A stretch of 9,318 nucleotides of DNA, from NCBI GenBank assembly GCA_016202645.1, contig JACQOF010000066.1, positions 1 through 9,318 of the forward strand. The letters are read 5' to 3'. Positions 509 through 9,155 of the stretch are shown in pieces (position 1 is the first letter of the stretch; each line of letters opens with the position of its first letter). Below the pieces are notes generated by a model. That model made no database searches. It saw nothing but the letters and a program-made list of their open reading frames with translations, and was not told where the DNA came from. A program made the translations under genes and the position numbers. This DNA is from a bacterium (lineage in GTDB: Bacteria > Lindowbacteria > 2-12-FULL-62-27).

Positions 509-1738
509 ATGAATGACCGTCGAATTGGGTTCGTGATCGCCATGCTCATGCTCGCCATCGGGTTTTTGGCGGCGACCAGCGAACCGGCGGACGCCATCGC
601 GGCGTGGGGGCGCAAGTACAGCGTCTCCTGCAGCGCCTGTCATCAGGGGCAGTGGGACTTGAACAAGGATGGCCAGGAGTTTTTGCGCCGGGGCCACCGC
701 TACGAAGAGGAGAAGGCGGGGCCGAACATCAACGACCATATGTCCTTCGCCACTAAAATCCGGTATAAGTACGGCGAGACCAGCAGTCCCCGCACGAAGT
801 TCGAGCATCACGCATTTGCCATTTACACGGGCGGCGCGATGACGCCCCAGTTTTCCTACTTCACGGAAGTCTATCTCCATGAAAACGCCGGCAAGCAGAC
901 CGGCACCACCCTGCCAGAGAGCGATGACGGCGCGAGAACCAAACTGGCCGAGTCCTTTCTGCAGTGGACATCGGCCGACGGTCCGCGCTACAACTCCGTC
1001 CGAGTGGGCCAGATCATGCCGTCCCTGATCCACCGGTTCGGCGGCGGCGCGCGGCTTTCCTACAGCCGGCCTCTGGTCCTGACCCAGGAGGACACCACGT
1101 TGGCCGCGGCGAGGACCGGCTATTCGTTCTTCAAGCGGGATTATGGAGCCGAGTACACCCGGCAACACGACAACCTGCACCTGGCGCTCGGCTTGGTGAA
1201 CGGCGGCGGAACTTCCGGCACCTTCAACACCACCGACACCGACAACCACCGGGACTTCTACGGCACCGTCGATTATGTCTTCGACGACAACGGAAGCATG
1301 ATCGGTTACTACTTCTACGACGGCGAGCTGTCCAACTTCAAGAACTTTAACAGCGGCTTCACTCGCCACGCCGTGATGAGCCATTACGTCAGGGACAACT
1401 ACAAGCTGACCGGGTTTTGGTCATGGGGCGACCGGAAGGTCGCGCTGGCCGGACCCAAGACCAAGAACAAGATGTATTACGGCCAGCTGTCGATGTATGA
1501 GCTCGAGAAGTACGTGAAGATGTCTCTGCCGATGTCGATGTATGTCCGGCACGAGTTCATCGATCTGGACAAGGACCGGAAGGTTTCGGATCTCATCCGG
1601 CAGAATGTTGTGGGGCTCCAGATCGAGCCCTTTGAATACGGCCATCTGGTGCTGGAATGGATCGGCAAGCGCGATCAGACGGTGGCGGCGCCGGTGCATC
1701 GCAACGAGCTTGTGGCCGAACTTCAGTACATCTGGTGA
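509..1738 (+). CDS. Cyc2-like monoheme cytochrome fused to an outer-membrane beta-barrel
   Basis: The 409-residue product has a signal peptide (hydrophobic core about residues 6-22, likely cleavage near PADA-29). One c-type heme site, CSACH (41-45), follows about a dozen residues later. After it comes LNKDGQEFLRRGHRY, which resembles the L-N-x-x-G-x-x-F-x-x-x-G-[YH]-R pattern seen after the heme in fused cytochrome-porins such as iron-oxidiser Cyc2. The rest is rich in alternating aromatic and polar residues typical of transmembrane beta strands and ends in a terminal Trp (QYIW), the usual outer-membrane barrel signature. Length fits the family (roughly 400-500). The start at 509 is chosen for the signal peptide and an AAAGGGGG ribosome-binding site 8 nt upstream, although the frame is open back to 329. 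The inferred role is electron transfer across the outer membrane. Cyc2 orthology itself is unproven, because related heme-barrel proteins of unknown function are widespread. Confidence 0.85.
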   Translation: MNDRRIGFVIAMLMLAIGFLAATSEPADAIAAWGRKYSVSCSACHQGQWDLNKDGQEFLRRGHRYEEEKAGPNINDHMSFATKIRYKYGETSSPRTKFEHHAFAIYTGGAMTPQFSYFTEVYLHENAGKQTGTTLPESDDGARTKLAESFLQWTSADGPRYNSVRVGQIMPSLIHRFGGGARLSYSRPLVLTQEDTTLAAARTGYSFFKRDYGAEYTRQHDNLHLALGLVNGGGTSGTFNTTDTDNHRDFYGTVDYVFDDNGSMIGYYFYDGELSNFKNFNSGFTRHAVMSHYVRDNYKLTGFWSWGDRKVALAGPKTKNKMYYGQLSMYELEKYVKMSLPMSMYVRHEFIDLDKDRKVSDLIRQNVVGLQIEPFEYGHLVLEWIGKRDQTVAAPVHRNELVAELQYIW

Positions 1739-1771
1739 TCGTTCAGGGTTAGGCATTCGACCAAAATCCGA

Positions 1772-1812
1772 TTCCGCCCCGCCTCCCGAAATCCGGGGGG
1801 CGGGGAACGGAA
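1772..1812 (+). promoter_or_regulatory. Strong intercistronic RNA hairpin without U-tract
   Basis: A 12-bp stem (1777-1788 with 1794-1805, including one T:G wobble) closes a 5-nt loop AAATC. Beyond a small internal loop it extends by TTCC (1772-1775) pairing with GGAA (1809-1812). It lies between the cytochrome-porin stop and the ribosome-binding site of the tetraheme cytochrome (AGGAGG, 1819-1824). No run of T follows, so it is not a standard rho-independent terminator. It could mark an mRNA processing or stability boundary, or tune expression of the two cytochromes. The structure is seen directly; the role is inferred. Confidence 0.55.
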
Positions 1813-1832
1813 CCGGTCAGGAGGAAATCAGG

Positions 1833-2474
1833 ATGGGACTTAGTGAGAGGGACGTGAATCTGATGGAGAGGACGTTTCTGGTTACCGGCGTTTTTCTCGC
1901 CGTGATTTTCTCGATCCTGTGCCTGGCGCTCCTGCTCTGGCCGGCGGCGGGGTTTGCGGCGGAGACCAAGTCCGCCGCCGAAGCCAAACCCCCGGCGGCC
2001 AAACACGAATTTGCCGGGACCGACAAGTGCAAGAAGTGCCACAAACTGCAGTTCGAGACGTGGGAGAAAACCAAACACGCGACGGCTGTGAACACCGTCA
2101 AGAAAATGCCGAAGGACCTCAAGGTCGATCCGGAGGTCGCGGTCGTCACGGACACCGGCGTCCAATTTGTGAAGACCGGTGAGTTCAAGACGTGCCTGTC
2201 GTGCCACACGACGGGGTATGACGAGAAAACCGGCAAGGCCGTCCACGAGGGCGTGTCCTGCGAGGCCTGCCATGGCGCCGGCGCGGACTACGGGAAAGTC
2301 GCGATCATGAAAAACCGGGAGAAGGCGGTTGCCGCGGGGCTCACCATTCCGACCGAGGCCACGTGCCGGCAGTGCCACCGCGCGGACAATCCCTTCGAGA
2401 AGGAAAAGTTCAATTTTGACAAGCGTAAAGGTAAGGTTCATGAGCACAAGAAGAAAAGCGAAGGAGCGAAATAG
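1833..2474 (+). CDS. Periplasmic tetraheme cytochrome c, c554-like family
   Basis: The 213-residue protein has a hydrophobic segment (about residues 14-36) followed by AAGFAAE, so it is either a cleaved signal peptide (near 42-43) or a membrane anchor. Four CxxCH heme sites are present: CKKCH (66-70), CLSCH (121-125), CEACH (143-147) and CRQCH (178-182). The arrangement GTDKC..CH..Q...W..TKHA, then CLSCHTTGY, then GVSCEACHG is typical of the cytochrome c554 / multiheme family, in which the His of the KHA motif (His82) and a His just before the third site (His138) serve as distal heme ligands. His203 and His205 in the Lys-rich tail are further candidates. The start at 1833 has an excellent AGGAGG 8 nt upstream; a second Met at 1863 is less well supported. 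It lies 94 nt after the cytochrome-porin gene and 3 nt before the next gene. It is a likely periplasmic electron carrier for the outer-membrane cytochrome; the actual partner is inferred. Confidence 0.92.
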   Translation: MGLSERDVNLMERTFLVTGVFLAVIFSILCLALLLWPAAGFAAETKSAAEAKPPAAKHEFAGTDKCKKCHKLQFETWEKTKHATAVNTVKKMPKDLKVDPEVAVVTDTGVQFVKTGEFKTCLSCHTTGYDEKTGKAVHEGVSCEACHGAGADYGKVAIMKNREKAVAAGLTIPTEATCRQCHRADNPFEKEKFNFDKRKGKVHEHKKKSEGAK

Positions 2475-2477
2475 AGT

Positions 2478-3545
2478 TTGATTTACCGACACAGAGGGGT
2501 TTTCATTCTTGCCGTTCTGGCCCTGCTCGCCTGTCCGGGGATGTCCTGGCCGGTGGAACTGGACGACGCGCCGCCCTATGCGCTCGAACCGGTCTTCGCC
2601 CCCATCCCGCTGGAGGTCGTCAGCCTCGATCTGGAGGGACCGACGGGCGCGCCGTTCTGTCTGGCCGTCTCCGACAAGTCGGTCTTCCTCCTGAAATCCT
2701 CCGGGCGGAACTGGAAGACCCTCGACGTCATCCAGCCCGCCGGGACCGCCGTGTCGGGGGGATTCATCGAAACGCCGACGGCCAGCCGGGCCGCCGCGCG
2801 GGATCCCATCCGGTTTTTCGTGTCGAGCATCCATTCGGACGGACGCATCCTCACGACGTTTTATGTCTCGCGCCGGGGTAAAAAAGAGGTCGAGGGCCAG
2901 ACGGAGGGCAAAATCTATCGCAAGGACGGACCCGTTCTTGTTTCGCAGAGGCTGAATCAGGACGTCGGTCCGGTCGTGGTCGAAATGGTCCGGCCGGGAC
3001 TTCTGCCCAAACCCCTCTGGAATCTGCCCCTTCCCCCCGGAACAGGGCTGTTTGAATTCGGCCGGTTTTCCGACCCCGGCGAGGGCAAACTCGCGCGGAT
3101 CGAGAAAGATGAGGACATCAGCCTGTGGGTGAGGGATGAGCTGTCGGCGAAAGCCGGACTCAGAGTTGGCCGGCCGCCTCTCGAACTTCCCCGGCGGGTC
3201 GAACGTTTTGCCGAAAAACATTACGTCCCGCCCCTGGCGGCCGACGCGGACAAAGACGGAGGGGAGGATTTGATCGTTGCGATCAACAACCCGGACGTGA
3301 GCGGCGGATTTTTCCTGAAGGCCGAGGACCACCGGTCCAGGATCGCGGTCCTCAAGGTGACCCGCGGCGCGGCCGGCCCGTCGCTGGAGATCAGCGGCGC
3401 CACCCCCGTGGTCCAGGGGTCCGTTTCCGCCCTGGTGGTGATGGACGGCCAGGTGATCGCGGCGGTGGTCTCGGCCAAAACGCGCGAGACGCGCCTACAC
3501 CGGCTGAAGACAAAGGATACATACCGAACATCAACGGCCCCGTAA
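2478..3545 (+). CDS. Secreted protein of unknown function with an FG-GAP/VCBS-like calcium-loop motif
   Basis: The 355-residue product begins at TTG; it follows the tetraheme cytochrome stop by 3 nt and has AAGGAG 11 nt upstream (2461-2466). The next Met (residue 22) would remove the signal sequence, which supports the TTG start. Residues 8-18 are hydrophobic and end in LLAC (Cys19), which could be a weak lipobox, although Pro at +2 and Leu at -2 are unusual; ordinary signal peptidase cleavage after about residue 23 is the alternative. The mature part looks mostly beta-stranded. DADKDGGEDL (256-265) fits the D-x-D-x-D-G-x-x-D calcium loop of FG-GAP/VCBS propeller repeats, and a weaker propeller character is suggested by blocks such as FCLAVSDKSVFLLKSSG. 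There are no heme motifs. Spacing implies co-expression with the two cytochromes, and a terminator follows. I do not recognise a specific family; a surface or periplasmic accessory to the cytochromes is inference. Confidence 0.8.
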   Translation: MIYRHRGVFILAVLALLACPGMSWPVELDDAPPYALEPVFAPIPLEVVSLDLEGPTGAPFCLAVSDKSVFLLKSSGRNWKTLDVIQPAGTAVSGGFIETPTASRAAARDPIRFFVSSIHSDGRILTTFYVSRRGKKEVEGQTEGKIYRKDGPVLVSQRLNQDVGPVVVEMVRPGLLPKPLWNLPLPPGTGLFEFGRFSDPGEGKLARIEKDEDISLWVRDELSAKAGLRVGRPPLELPRRVERFAEKHYVPPLAADADKDGGEDLIVAINNPDVSGGFFLKAEDHRSRIAVLKVTRGAAGPSLEISGATPVVQGSVSALVVMDGQVIAAVVSAKTRETRLHRLKTKDTYRTSTAP

Positions 3546-3618: not shown

Positions 3619-3647
3619 GGGGGCCGCTGACGCGGCCCCCATTTTTT
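3619..3647 (+). terminator. Rho-independent terminator of the cytochrome operon
   Basis: A perfect 9-bp stem GGGGGCCGC / GCGGCCCCC (3619-3627 with 3632-3640) closes a TGAC loop and is followed by A and six T. It lies 74 nt after the last gene of the operon and upstream of citrate synthase, so it separates the two transcription units. Confidence 0.93.
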
Positions 3648-3732: not shown

Positions 3733-5034
3733 ATGGCGGAATCCAATAATCCCCAGGCAACGCTTGCATGGGACGGCAAGGCCGTCAGTTTCCCGGTGGT
3801 GGAAGGCAGTGAAGGCGAGCGGGCCGTAGACGTTTCGAATCTTCGAGGCCAGACCGGTCTGGTCACGCTGGATCCCGGATTCGTCAATACCGGCGCCTGC
3901 CGGAGCGCCATCACGTTTCTGGACGGCGAGCGCGGGATCCTGCGCTATCGCGGATATCCGATCGAACAGCTCGCCGAGTACAGCAACTTTCTCGAAGTCG
4001 CCCACCTCCTCATTTACGGGCGGCTCCCGTCGGAGAAAGAGTTCGGCCGGTTCGAGTACGAAGTCAAGCATCACACGATGATCCATGAGGACCTCAAACG
4101 GTTTTACGAGGCCCTGCCCAAGGATTCCCATCCGATGGCGGTCTGCTCGGCCGTCGTCGGGGCGCTGTCGGCTTTCTACAAGGAACTGGCGGACCCCCGA
4201 AACGCCGAGCAGGTGGACGGCGCAGCCCTTCGGCTGGTGGCCAAGATGCCGACCATCGCCGCCTATTCCTACAAACACTCCATCGGCCAGCCCTTCGTCT
4301 ACCCGATGAACAGCCTCGACTACCCGGCGGACTTCCTCCACATGATGTTCGCCACGCCCTGCGAGGAATACGCCGTCGAGCCGGCCCTGGCCAAAGCCCT
4401 GGACCTTCTTCTGATTCTCCACGCCGACCACGAGCAGAACTGCTCGACGAGCACCGTGCGGCTGGTCGGAAGCTCCATGGCGAATCTCTTTGCCAGCGTT
4501 TCAGCCGGCATCAGCGCCCTCTGGGGGCCTCTGCACGGCGGCGCGAACCAGGCGGTGATCGAGATGCTGGAGGAGATCGAGCGCGGCGCCGAGACGCCGG
4601 CGTCGTTCATGAGCAAGGTCAAGGACAAAAAAAACAGCGTGCGGCTGATGGGATTCGGCCACCGGGTCTACAAGAATTTCGACCCGCGCGCCCGGATTTT
4701 GAAAAAGGCCTGCGGCGAAGTTCTCAGCGCGCTCGGCCGGACCGACCGGCTGTTCGACATCGCGCTGGGCTTGGAGGAGATCGCGCTCAAGGACGACTAT
4801 TTCGTTTCGCGCAAGCTCTATCCCAACGTCGATTTCTATTCCGGCATCATCTACCGGGCGCTCGGCATTCCGACCAACATGTTCACGGTGCTCTTCGCTA
4901 TGGGCCGCCTGCCGGGCTGGATCGCGCACTGGAAGGAAATGCACGCCGACCCGGCGTTCAAGATCGGCCGGCCGCGGCAGATCTACATCGGCGAGAAAAG
5001 GCGGGAGTATCAGGCTGTCAGCTTGAGGACTTAG
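3733..5034 (+). CDS. gltA: Citrate synthase (GltA type)
   Basis: It catalyses oxaloacetate plus acetyl-CoA to citrate, the entry step of the TCA cycle, in the cytoplasm. The 433-residue protein matches the length and layout of bacterial GltA-type enzymes (E. coli about 427), including the N-terminal beta region (TLDPGFVNTGACRSAITFLDG) that shorter methylcitrate synthases lack. Catalytic motifs are intact: HADHEQN (from His230), GPLHGGAN (His268) and FGHRVYKNFDPRA (His310 and the catalytic Asp317). It ends in the usual GRPRQIYIGEKRREY-type tail. The start at 3733 has GGAGG (3724-3728) just upstream; an in-frame ATG at 3706 would add nine unlikely residues. A small hairpin GGCGC/GCGCC (3688-3700) lies in the leader. 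It is preceded by a terminator, so it should have its own promoter, but I see no convincing one (only TAAAAT at 3663-3668). Its stop overlaps the stop of the convergent porin gene. Confidence 0.97.
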   Translation: MAESNNPQATLAWDGKAVSFPVVEGSEGERAVDVSNLRGQTGLVTLDPGFVNTGACRSAITFLDGERGILRYRGYPIEQLAEYSNFLEVAHLLIYGRLPSEKEFGRFEYEVKHHTMIHEDLKRFYEALPKDSHPMAVCSAVVGALSAFYKELADPRNAEQVDGAALRLVAKMPTIAAYSYKHSIGQPFVYPMNSLDYPADFLHMMFATPCEEYAVEPALAKALDLLLILHADHEQNCSTSTVRLVGSSMANLFASVSAGISALWGPLHGGANQAVIEMLEEIERGAETPASFMSKVKDKKNSVRLMGFGHRVYKNFDPRARILKKACGEVLSALGRTDRLFDIALGLEEIALKDDYFVSRKLYPNVDFYSGIIYRALGIPTNMFTVLFAMGRLPGWIAHWKEMHADPAFKIGRPRQIYIGEKRREYQAVSLRT

Positions 5035-6143
5035 AACCACAACAACGCGTCGATCTGTATCCGGACCCTGTCCGGCCGGGTGCTTGCCCGGACGGGTTTG
5101 AGGAGAAATGCCGCCGCCGTGAGTTTCAGGTGGTTCCAGGGGACGTAATCGAGTTCAAACCGGTGTCCCCGGCTGTTGGTAAACGAAAAATCGCTGTCCG
5201 CGAACGCTGAAAGGACCGCGTCCGGATCGATGTCGGCGTACCGATATTTGAACATCTGATCGCCCTTGTTTTTTTCGCGTCCCAGAGCCAGTTCGGCCAA
5301 AAAGCCCTCGTCGTATTTCCTTCCCGCAAGCGCCCGCGCCCCGCGATTTTTCGCATAATCCAGTTCCAACGCGAAGGGGATTTTCCCGCCGAGCGTGGTT
5401 TCGAATTTGACCGGAATGTTGATGATTCTGAAATCGGAGACCAGTGCGGTGCCGGCGGCGTTCGTCAGATTGCCGTTCAGGCCGACAGCAAGCGTGGAGT
5501 TTGGCCGAATGACCTGCGTGTAGGACGGAAGAATCATCCATCGGGCGCCGTTCCGGCTTTCAAATTGCCAGCCGGATTGATAGGCGAGCAGATAACCGTC
5601 TTCGGTCGTCGAGGAACTGTTGATGAAAAACTGTCCAAGCGTCGCGATGAAGAGTCCCCGGCCGGTTTTGAATTTGAACGTCTCCGCCGCGCCTTCGGGA
5701 TTAAGGTCGGCGTCCCAGACCAGCGACGTGCGGAACATCGGTGTCGGCATTTTTCCGGCTTTGAGCTCGAGCCATGGCCAGGGCCGGACGGCGCCATAAA
5801 TCTGGCTGACGTGGAATGTCTTCGGCGTAAAATTGCCCGTGAACGTCTGGTTTTCGGATGTCGGGTCCGCGGTTGATCCGGACGCCCCGCGGAACGTCAG
5901 GGACGCGAAATCTCCGAATTGTTTGGTAAATCCCGCGCGGAACCGGTATCGGCCTCGATTGTCCCCCGCCGCCGTATCGTCAAAGATCCCCTCGTATCTC
6001 ACCCGCAGATCCGACGAGAACGTGATCCCCTTGAACATTTTTGCGATATTCTTGAGGTCCTCGTCGTCGGATTGACCGGCGGCAAACGAGGGATGGGCCA
6101 GGAGCGCAAGAATCAGCGATCCGAGCACGGACATTCTGAACAT
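5031..6143 (-). CDS. Putative porin, outer-membrane beta-barrel (Porin_5-like)
   Basis: The 370-residue protein has a signal peptide (hydrophobic residues 5-16, cleavage after SFA-21 or FAA-22). It is followed by a short acidic helix-like stretch, then beta-barrel sequence. Several segments resemble the 'putative porin' family (Pfam PF16930): LRVRYEG followed by RGRYRFRAGF, then DPTSENQTF, then LKAGKMPTPMFRTSLVWDAD and LNPEGAAE. The protein ends in DALLWF, with the terminal aromatic residue recognised for outer-membrane insertion. The family is thought to form passive channels; the substrate is unknown. There are no heme motifs, so it differs from the heme-barrel at 509-1738. The ATG at 6143 has no clear ribosome-binding site and the next Met is three codons in, so the start is uncertain by 9 nt. 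The gene is convergent with citrate synthase (stop codons share TTAG at 5031-5034) and divergent from the TPR gene. Confidence 0.88.
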   Translation of the reverse strand: MFRMSVLGSLILALLAHPSFAAGQSDDEDLKNIAKMFKGITFSSDLRVRYEGIFDDTAAGDNRGRYRFRAGFTKQFGDFASLTFRGASGSTADPTSENQTFTGNFTPKTFHVSQIYGAVRPWPWLELKAGKMPTPMFRTSLVWDADLNPEGAAETFKFKTGRGLFIATLGQFFINSSSTTEDGYLLAYQSGWQFESRNGARWMILPSYTQVIRPNSTLAVGLNGNLTNAAGTALVSDFRIINIPVKFETTLGGKIPFALELDYAKNRGARALAGRKYDEGFLAELALGREKNKGDQMFKYRYADIDPDAVLSAFADSDFSFTNSRGHRFELDYVPWNHLKLTAAAFLLKPVRASTRPDRVRIQIDALLWF

Positions 6144-6252
6144 GGGGATGGATATACCAAAAACCGCGGTTTCTGGCGATCCTCTCAGCCTTTTTTGTGC
6201 CGGATTTCCGGACCCGTTGACGGCGGTCCGGGGATACTGGTTTTATCGGAGC

Positions 6253-8202
6253 ATGATCCGCGGTCCGGCAGTCCGGGTATTGTGGTTGGTGATGCTGTGC
6301 TCGATGTTTTCCTCTCCGGGATTTGGAGAGATCATTTTTCAGGAACCCTTTGACACGGCCGTCTCCAGAAACGGCGCCTCCTTCGACACGCGGTATGCGG
6401 TCTCCCGAATGGACTCGGGAATGTTGATCTTCCGATATGCCGGCGACGTGAACAGTCTTCCGGCCGGCGTCGAGGCCCGATTCCCCGACGCAACGCCGGC
6501 GCCCGCCGAACGCCGGATCGATTTGTCGTTTGGCGGCGGCGGCACGGAACTTTCCAATTCCCTCTTCATCGCCTATGCCTTGGGCCCCGGCGATGGCCTT
6601 TCCCTGCCTCCCTTCGGATACGGCGGGGCGTCCGACAGCCGCACGGGCAACCGCACCGGTTATGTCGTCCGCCTTCTCCGGCATGGGGACGGCACAAACG
6701 AGGTCCTCTTTTACCGGAACGACACCGGCTGGGTAAACCGCATCTCAAACGCATGGCTGCCCTCCAACCCCGTTTCCACGCTCCGTCGCGCGGTGATCCG
6801 TTACCGCCGGGACGGGTGGCATTTTTGGGAAATGACGTTCGACACAGGGGCTTCATATATCCGGGCGTTCGCGTTCAAGGACGACGTCTATCCCCCCGGC
6901 TTCCACGACGGTGCGCAGGTGAGTGTGAAGGCCCACAGCGGGATCCGGGCTGAATTTCAATTTAGAATGGATACGTGGACCGTCACAGATCGCGCCGCCG
7001 CGTCGGACCTTGCACCGGAAGCGAAATCCATAATGAAGGCCGAGAAGACCCAGGGCCGTCCTCCGAAAAAAGCGGCGCCGGACCCGGCCGACGGCGATGC
7101 GCTGGACCAGCTGGGCCGGACTGCGGCCCTGGAGGAGCGATATTCGGACGCGCACCGTTTTTTTCGGATGGCGCTTGAGGCCCGAAAACGGAAATTCGGA
7201 TCGGGCCATCCGAAAGTCGCGGAAAGTCTCGAACGCCTGGCGGATCTTCTGGCCGCGCGGGACGGGTCGCGCGCGGAACAGCTTTATGAGGCGGCCTTTT
7301 ATTATCGGGTGAAATCGTTCGGGGAAACGCATCCCGAAGTTGCGCAGAGCTTGAAAAAACTTGGCGGGATATATGCTTCCCGCGGAATTTCCGGGCGCGC
7401 TGAATTCTCCTTCCAGCGAGCCCTGCAGATTCAGGCCGCCACCCGCGGCCCGGACCATCCGGACGTGGCCGACGCGCTCATGGATCTGGGCGGGTTTTAC
7501 CGGAATCAGGGAAAAAAGGCGGCTGCGGCCGGCGTCTACCGGCGCGCCCTGGAGATTCGAGAAAAGATTTTCGGAAAAGACCATCCGGCCGTGCTTACGG
7601 TCCTGTCCAACCTGGTTCTCGTGTATGAGGAGGGCAAGCCTTCCGCAGATTCGCTCGACATTCACCTGCGGGTGGTTGAGGCCCTCGAAAAACAATTCGG
7701 CCCTGATCATCCGGACGTCGCGGACGCATACACGCATCTTGCCAAAGTTTATTCTGATCTGGGCCTGTACGCGCAGGCTGAGACTTACCATCGCCGCGCG
7801 CTCGGCATTCGGGAGAAGATGCCGGGGCCGGCCCATGCCTACACGGGAGTCATCCTGTATAACTTGGCGGGCGTTCTCCATGCGCTGGCAAGGTTCGATG
7901 AAGCGGAAACCGCGCTTCAGAGGTCCCTGACCGTGACAGAAGAAACAGAGGGTCCGGACCATCCGGATGTGGAGGATATCTTGGAGAGACTTGGGGATCT
8001 CCACGTGAGCCTGCGCCGCTACAGGGACGCCGAGCCGGTGTTGCTCCGTCTTCTGGCGATTCGCGAGAAGACTCGCGGCCCGGATCATCCGTCCATCCGG
8101 CCGGTTGCGGAAAAATTGTCTTTGCTGTACAAGAAAATGAAGCGTCCGAAGGACGAAAAGCGATTCGCCGACAGGGCCAGGCGCCCAGGAGGATTGAAAT
8201 GA
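6253..8202 (+). CDS. Secreted beta-sandwich plus TPR-repeat protein (kinesin-light-chain type)
   Basis: From the Met at 6253 the product has 649 residues. A signal peptide (hydrophobic about 7-20, likely cleavage after GFG-25) is followed by a region at about 26-246 that looks like a LamG/concanavalin-type beta-sandwich (IIFQEPFD, GYVVRLL, WHFWEMTFD, FQFRMDTWTVTD). A charged linker leads to TPR repeats from about residue 285 to the end. Eight repeat units carry a His-Pro-type motif (GPDHPDVAD and variants) with His at 319, 360, 402, 444, 486, 528, 570 and 612: exactly 42 residues apart except the first interval of 41. The sixth unit is degenerate (GPAHAYTG). Such repeats bind proteins or peptides; no catalytic domain is seen. 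The frame is open up to an ATG at 6142, but that overlaps the divergent porin start and would bury the signal peptide, so 6253 is preferred despite a poor ribosome-binding site. The stop overlaps the next start (ATGA). Confidence 0.85.
   Translation: MIRGPAVRVLWLVMLCSMFSSPGFGEIIFQEPFDTAVSRNGASFDTRYAVSRMDSGMLIFRYAGDVNSLPAGVEARFPDATPAPAERRIDLSFGGGGTELSNSLFIAYALGPGDGLSLPPFGYGGASDSRTGNRTGYVVRLLRHGDGTNEVLFYRNDTGWVNRISNAWLPSNPVSTLRRAVIRYRRDGWHFWEMTFDTGASYIRAFAFKDDVYPPGFHDGAQVSVKAHSGIRAEFQFRMDTWTVTDRAAASDLAPEAKSIMKAEKTQGRPPKKAAPDPADGDALDQLGRTAALEERYSDAHRFFRMALEARKRKFGSGHPKVAESLERLADLLAARDGSRAEQLYEAAFYYRVKSFGETHPEVAQSLKKLGGIYASRGISGRAEFSFQRALQIQAATRGPDHPDVADALMDLGGFYRNQGKKAAAAGVYRRALEIREKIFGKDHPAVLTVLSNLVLVYEEGKPSADSLDIHLRVVEALEKQFGPDHPDVADAYTHLAKVYSDLGLYAQAETYHRRALGIREKMPGPAHAYTGVILYNLAGVLHALARFDEAETALQRSLTVTEETEGPDHPDVEDILERLGDLHVSLRRYRDAEPVLLRLLAIREKTRGPDHPSIRPVAEKLSLLYKKMKRPKDEKRFADRARRPGGLK
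7204..8090 (+). repeat. 126-bp tandem coding repeat (TPR units)
   Basis: The DNA copies of the TPR unit remain similar at base level. The core GA[C/T]CATCC or a variant begins at 7204, 7327, 7453, 7579, 7705, 7831, 7957 and 8083. The spacing is 126 bp throughout, apart from the first interval of 123. The constant period and conserved GGCCCGGA[C/T]CATCCG blocks suggest growth of the array by duplication within the gene. Confidence 0.85.
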
Positions 8203-9155
8203 GCCTCAGAACGGCCGCGCATGCAGCGCCGCACCTGGACATCCCGGCCGGGAGCGAAAAAGAGAGATTTACGCTGAAATTATTTGACGATCTATGGGCC
8301 AGGTACATCCGCCGGGTGTCCCACGTCCGGACTTACGAGGAGATCGTCGCCCGGCACGGCGGGAAATTCGTCAACGACCACATCGCCTTCCGCACCATCG
8401 CCTGGCCCGATCCGGCGACGGGGATTTTTACGCTGGCGCGGATATTCAAGGCCCTCGGATTTTCTCCGGCGGCCTGCTACGAGTTTCCGGACAAGCACCT
8501 CGGCGCGATCCACATGGAGCATCCCAACCCAAAATTTCCGAAGCTCTTTATTTCCGAATTGAAAACCTGGGAAATCCCGAAACCGGCCCGGGCCATTCTC
8601 GCACGAAGCCTGAAGACCCACCGGCTGGGTCTTTCTCCGGAAGACCTCGCGCGGCTCTATCAGATCGACGGGGCCTCCGCGCGTGACCGGGCAGGCCTGC
8701 TGTCGCGCGTCATCCGCGTCTTCAACCACCTCCCCTGGAACACGCCCCGAAAGGCCGACGTCCTGGCGCTCGACAAAGCGTCCCAATATGGCGCCTGGGT
8801 TCTTCTGAACGGATACGAAGTCAACCATTTCACCGCCTCGGTCAATTCTCACGGCGTCGCGGCCCTCGACAGCATCGACAAAACCATCGCGGCCCTCAAG
8901 AACGCGGGCGTGCCGATGAAAAAAGAAATCGAGGGCGATCCGGGCAGTCTCCTCCGGCAATCCTCCACGGAAGCGGTGAAGTTGTCTTTCAGAGTTCGGG
9001 GGAACCGCGGCCCGGAGACGTTGGAATGGACCTACGCTTATTTCGAAATCGCCGAACGCGGCTATGCCACAGACGCCCGCACCGGCGCCCGCAACCGATT
9101 TGAAGGTTTCCTTGGCGCCCAAGCCGCACAGTTGTTTGATATGACAAAGGTGTGA
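8199..9155 (+). CDS. DUF1338 protein, 2-oxoadipate dioxygenase/decarboxylase-like
   Basis: The 318-residue protein belongs by motif to the DUF1338 family, whose characterised member HglS converts 2-oxoadipate to D-2-hydroxyglutarate with a non-heme metal during lysine breakdown. Visible motifs are NDHIAFRT (His61 and Arg65, the H-x3-R pair that in HglS gives a metal ligand and a substrate-binding Arg), HMEHP and FISEL in the middle, VNHFTAS (His210, second ligand) and YFEIAERG (Glu283, probable third ligand). HglS has about 460 residues; this is one of the shorter homologues, so the substrate may differ. There is no signal peptide, so it is presumably cytoplasmic. The ATG overlaps the upstream TPR gene stop as ATGA, with AGGAGG (8187-8192) 6 nt upstream, which implies translational coupling. 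No other lysine-degradation gene is in the window, so the pathway assignment is inferred. Confidence 0.88.
   Translation: MSLRTAAHAAPHLDIPAGSEKERFTLKLFDDLWARYIRRVSHVRTYEEIVARHGGKFVNDHIAFRTIAWPDPATGIFTLARIFKALGFSPAACYEFPDKHLGAIHMEHPNPKFPKLFISELKTWEIPKPARAILARSLKTHRLGLSPEDLARLYQIDGASARDRAGLLSRVIRVFNHLPWNTPRKADVLALDKASQYGAWVLLNGYEVNHFTASVNSHGVAALDSIDKTIAALKNAGVPMKKEIEGDPGSLLRQSSTEAVKLSFRVRGNRGPETLEWTYAYFEIAERGYATDARTGARNRFEGFLGAQAAQLFDMTKV

Follow-up and report, generated by a model that had tools for sequence, protein, structure and literature searches.

Do three adjacent genes from an uncultured groundwater bacterium of the Candidatus Lindowbacteria group encode a route for electrons across the outer membrane and, if so, of which kind? 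The window that we analysed is a whole contig of 9318 bases (G000:C39) from a genome of 2.9 Mb that is 82% complete. Genes 1, 2 and 3 are followed by a strong terminator and then by an unrelated citrate synthase gene.

509–1738, plus strand: gene 1, fused monoheme cytochrome-porin of the 'FLRxGH' clade (ATG at 509, 409 aa)
1833–2474, plus strand: gene 2, exported tetraheme cytochrome of the Cytochrome_C554 domain family (ATG at 1833, 213 aa, four CxxCH)
2478–3545, plus strand: gene 3, secreted protein, by homology a divergent FG-GAP-type beta-propeller (TTG at 2478, 355 aa, signal peptide)
3619–3646, plus strand: terminator-like hairpin and T run that closes the gene set (9 G-C pairs, the strongest among those found)

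Our phylum sample consists of three genomes, the window's own (G000), G001 and G002. These are real genes, because each of the proteins has conserved counterparts in related genomes, with best identities of 70%, 61% and 50% for genes 1, 2 and 3, respectively. The stop of gene 2 lies 3 bases before the start of gene 3, a gap of the same length as in the relative G002, and the three genes would be co-transcribed as one operon. A search for a promoter of the three-gene set found none, an Rfam search gave no match, and terminator-like sites across the region are no more numerous than in shuffled sequence. A 527-aa open reading frame on the minus strand (1749–3332) was rejected, since the overlapping plus-strand frames have conserved homologues.

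With a probability of roughly 60%, we favour an operon whose products build an outer-membrane electron conduit of a type that is Cyc2-like but not canonical. A preliminary description of the locus had proposed a compact conduit built from a Cyc2-like barrel, a tetraheme cytochrome and an accessory protein of unknown kind. Its account of the layout is correct: an exported protein with one CxxCH and a C-terminal Trp, an exported c554-like cytochrome with four CxxCH and a secreted protein without heme motifs, all on one strand and closed by one terminator. Other parts of that description need to be qualified, as we explain below.

The cytochrome-porin and its clade

Gene 1 starts with a signal peptide, which predicts export, and direct searches of Pfam, NCBIfam and PDB gave no match for it, nor did plasmid and viral searches. 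Profile alignment of the gene 1 clade plus its sister group with 29 further fused cytochrome-porins runs end-to-end (379 columns, hhalign probability 100, E 3e-47), and the cytochrome part matches a canonical AxPxFARQT-type member with a profile probability of 97.8%. Two of the 29 match porin families directly, though weakly (Porin_O_P 0.002, BBP2 0.0019), and PDB profile searches with the porins gave weak matches, the best of them to OmpT porins (E 0.065). Judged by this homology, gene 1 is a member of the fused cytochrome-porin superfamily, barrel part included. The C-terminus has hydrophobic residues at positions -1, -3, -5, -7 and -9, and the terminal residue is F or W in 37 of 47 relatives; homology and C-terminal signal are compatible with an outer-membrane barrel, which in Cyc2 has 16 strands. 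The AlphaFold model of gene 1 is unusable (pLDDT 28.5, from an alignment of only 2–3 sequences), and a hydropathy test of strand alternation did not separate porins from controls.

The closest known systems are the Cyc2 and Cyt572 fused cytochrome-porins (Keffer et al. 2021, PMC8406198), with which gene 1 shares a signal peptide, one CxxCH, a fused porin of about 400 aa and full-length profile homology. At 409 aa and with a single CxxCH in its N-terminal cytochrome region, it lies within the Cyc2 limits for size (at least 365 aa) and heme number. However, Cyc2 is also characterized by AxPxFAR[Q/K][T/Y] before the CxxCH and by PxL after it (PMC8406198), and gene 1 has neither. 'Cyc2-like' holds for the full-length homology but not for the published signatures, and gene 1 falls in a separate clade. 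The features concerned are as follows.

593–619, plus strand: AIAAWGRKY, in the place of the Cyc2 signature (motif from PMC8406198), which it does not match
629–643, plus strand: CSACH, the sole heme attachment motif of gene 1
653–661, plus strand: WDL, where the PxL motif would stand
695–697, plus strand: codon of His63, invariant in the clade and a candidate distal heme ligand
1706–1735, plus strand: ELVAELQYIW, the C-terminal outer-membrane insertion signal

We compared 57 distinct N-termini of cytochrome-porins. Of the 49 without 'FLRxGH', 48 have the PxL proline; of the 8 with 'FLRxGH', none has it. The eight form one clade (support 100/98) in a tree of 47 sequences that was built with the motif columns included. 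Their distribution is patchy: the window, G001, G132, G179, G353 (two copies), G484 and G642. As the eight sequences are one lineage, the loss of the proline and the gain of the histidine count as one evolutionary event, not eight. Besides the histidine of the heme motif, H63 is the only invariant His in the clade, which has no invariant Met, and it may be a heme ligand.

Fused cytochrome-porins serve to mark iron oxidation. The present clade keeps their architecture, yet without the marker motif and with a new invariant histidine, and so shows that the marker covers only part of the family. Other potentials or substrates may fall within this wider family.

The genomic settings of related porins are varied. 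Clade porins in G132, G179 and G642 have no multiheme cytochrome next door. One clade porin belongs to G484, a genome from another phylum, where large multihemes and a C554-type tetraheme lie nearby; the neighbours at this locus (L116, G484:C19) are a 9-heme protein, a 13-heme protein fused to a cytochrome b561-type domain, the C554-type tetraheme and another 13-heme protein. In G353, two clade cytochrome-porins stand in tandem, and genes for a response regulator and a kinase-like protein come next (L115, G353:C38, 7491–10400). The window's genome has a second cytochrome-porin, with the canonical motif (L052, G000:C7, 738–6501), which adjoins a response regulator, a kinase-like protein and a pentaheme protein.

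The tetraheme cytochrome and the secreted propeller-like protein

Gene 2 resembles cytochrome c554 and other Cytochrome_C554 proteins in its four hemes, in a domain score above the Pfam cut-off (PF13435, 57.4 bits against 20.8) and in a sequence match to the c554 structure 1bvb. It is far from the Nitrosomonas cytochrome c554 CycA itself (NCBIfam NF043010, 47 bits against a cut-off of 400). The heme motifs are located as follows.

2028–2042, plus strand: CKKCH, heme motif 1
2193–2207, plus strand: CLSCH, heme motif 2
2259–2273, plus strand: CEACH, heme motif 3
2364–2378, plus strand: CRQCH, heme motif 4

A further difference from cytochrome c554 is the conserved hydrophobic segment at the N-terminus. 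Identities of the 36 N-terminal residues and of the heme domain to four phylum relatives are 64/63, 58/45, 58/42 and 33/39%, so in three of these relatives the N-terminus is conserved at least as well as the heme domain. Such conservation suits a retained membrane anchor, and gene 2 is probably held at the membrane by its N-terminus; a cleavable signal peptide is also possible.

Unlike c554, gene 2 has paralogues in other respiratory loci. In G001 and G002 these lie beside a 9-heme cytochrome and a cytochrome-b-like protein, and a further G001 paralogue lies inside a molybdoenzyme operon; the cytochrome b and molybdoenzyme readings (L053–L055) come from inspection of the sequences and a neighbouring Nitrate_red_del match. 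Because of these paralogues, the tetraheme is a lineage-wide relay and is not dedicated to the porin locus. The compact conduit that had been proposed fits a recurring cluster and a role in electron transfer, with a tetraheme that is not its own. Elsewhere in G001, a 1059-aa open reading frame with 42 CxxCH is found near a 6-heme protein and another tetraheme (L059, G001:C30, 4906–8085).

Gene 3 has no CxxCH and no direct match in Pfam, NCBIfam or PDB. Its family profile reaches larger proteins outside the phylum, and all four of those whose frames were scanned carry FG-GAP_3 above the cut-off. Profile-profile alignment of the gene 3 family with these FG-GAP_3 proteins gave an hhalign probability of 98.3% (E 2.4e-14, 250 columns). 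By homology, therefore, gene 3 is a divergent secreted FG-GAP-type beta-propeller, and not the protein of unknown kind that had been described. The AlphaFold model is mostly beta but of low confidence (pLDDT 40.5, again from only 2–3 aligned sequences). Matches to designed WD40 propellers in PDB were not taken as proof, as they involve one 26-residue piece within repetitive chains.

In contrast to other FG-GAP propellers, gene 3 is shorter and has close homologues only in the phylum, always after a cytochrome-porin. A survey of 145 genomes found it in three, all of the same family; full-length matches to its profile were likewise confined to this family (386 genomes). A contig scan gave two loci, both from Candidatus Lindowbacteria, but used only two short N-terminal patterns, so that its silence elsewhere carries little weight. 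More distant paralogues also exist. In G001 one adjoins a NapC-like multiheme and a molybdoenzyme, and in G002 one has an FG-GAP_3 match at E 5.6e-4, below the curated cut-off.

How well is the trio conserved? Gene 3 is downstream of a fused cytochrome-porin in 3/3 phylum genomes, whereas the tetraheme lies between the two in 2/3 and is absent from this position in G001. The order in G001 is NrfD-like protein, NapC-like multiheme, cytochrome-porin (70% identity), gene 3 (50%) and a triheme. In G002 it is kinase-like protein, response regulator, cytochrome-porin of another kind, tetraheme (61%) and gene 3 (48%). Contigs C71 and C161 each carry a part of the G002 porin; their ends share 31 identical bases, and the joined order porin-tetraheme-gene 3 would run across them. 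The expected conservation is thus borne out for porin and propeller and is partial for the tetraheme and for the kind of porin. The gene set is a real, lineage-conserved variant of fused cytochrome-porin systems. Keffer et al. (PMC8406198) suggested that some partner might help iron in and out of the pore; the constant pairing of porin and propeller is a candidate for this kind of partner, although the link is speculative.

Proposed electron flow and competing readings

How might such a conduit work? The gene 1 barrel would span the outer membrane, its one heme plugging it from the periplasmic side, and an extracellular redox partner that is soluble or small would come to this heme through the pore and exchange electrons with it. 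The tetraheme would relay electrons between this heme and quinone-linked complexes of the inner membrane, and the secreted propeller may bind or dock parts of the conduit as a scaffold. The flow could be in either direction, uptake or export. This reading is favoured by the NrfD-like and NapC-like genes upstream in the G001 operon, by the tetraheme and large multihemes near the clade porin of G484 and by the respiratory loci of the tetraheme paralogues. The G001 locus without a tetraheme, the clade porins without multiheme neighbours, the promoter search that found nothing and the unusable structure models count against it. A barrel combined with a periplasmic heme relay is also the logic of MtrCAB, MtoAB and PioAB. 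Here, however, barrel and heme share one chain with one heme, the window has no decaheme cytochrome and the operon has no separate barrel protein, which sets the locus apart from MtrCAB-type systems.

Two more specific readings are both possible, yet we doubt either. The first is true Cyc2-type iron oxidation, in which Fe2+ enters the pore and is oxidized at the heme, and the tetraheme carries the electrons inward to an oxidase. Homology to Cyc2-type porins agrees with this, as does the report by the FeGenie authors of iron-oxidation potential, via cyc2 or sulfocyanin homologues, in a set of genomes with Candidatus Lindowbacteria among them (PMC7005843). Two of the three phylum genomes have heme-copper oxidases, but a search of the window's own 82%-complete genome found no oxidase subunit, and RuBisCO, the sole carbon-fixation route covered, has no match above the cut-off in the phylum. 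The absence of both Cyc2 signatures and the distinct clade also argue against it.

The second, which we doubt to the same degree, is the export of electrons from a quinol-oxidizing complex to extracellular acceptors, e.g. Fe(III), Mn(IV) or humics. The NrfD-like and NapC-like genes of G001 fit this, as do the many multiheme cytochromes of the phylum, including the open reading frame with 42 CxxCH, and a bis-histidine heme, if H63 is the ligand, would lower the potential. That said, unless an extracellular cytochrome helps, a lone heme on the periplasmic side has no access to solid acceptors, and the window encodes no such cytochrome.

A more elaborate proposal strikes us as unlikely: proteins of the H63 clade would make up a functional class of their own, in which the heme has bis-histidine ligation and a lower potential, and those of Lindowbacteria would work with a dedicated secreted propeller that attaches to the pore and deals with its extracellular substrate. 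It is improbable that gene 1 is instead a solute porin with the heme as a sensor or redox gate, gene 3 as the solute-binding protein and electron transfer as a secondary matter: a distant gene 3 paralogue in G002 has a Porin_4 protein and a small secreted protein as neighbours, and the G001 locus does without the tetraheme, but the neighbours of the porins are mostly electron-transfer proteins and sequence conservation in the fused cytochrome-porin family is highest in the heme region.

The remainder of the window holds some minor features. The protein encoded at 8199–9155 belongs to the HGLS (2-oxoadipate dioxygenase/decarboxylase) Pfam family and scores far below the NCBIfam equivalog. A Porin_5 protein (5031–6143, minus strand) and a TPR protein (6142–8202, plus strand) point away from each other, with overlapping starts of their open reading frames; the true start of the TPR protein is probably further downstream. 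Finally, positions 78–152 are a 75-base palindromic repeat, a REP-like dispersed hairpin that occurs about 40 times across the genome (82 match rows on both strands).
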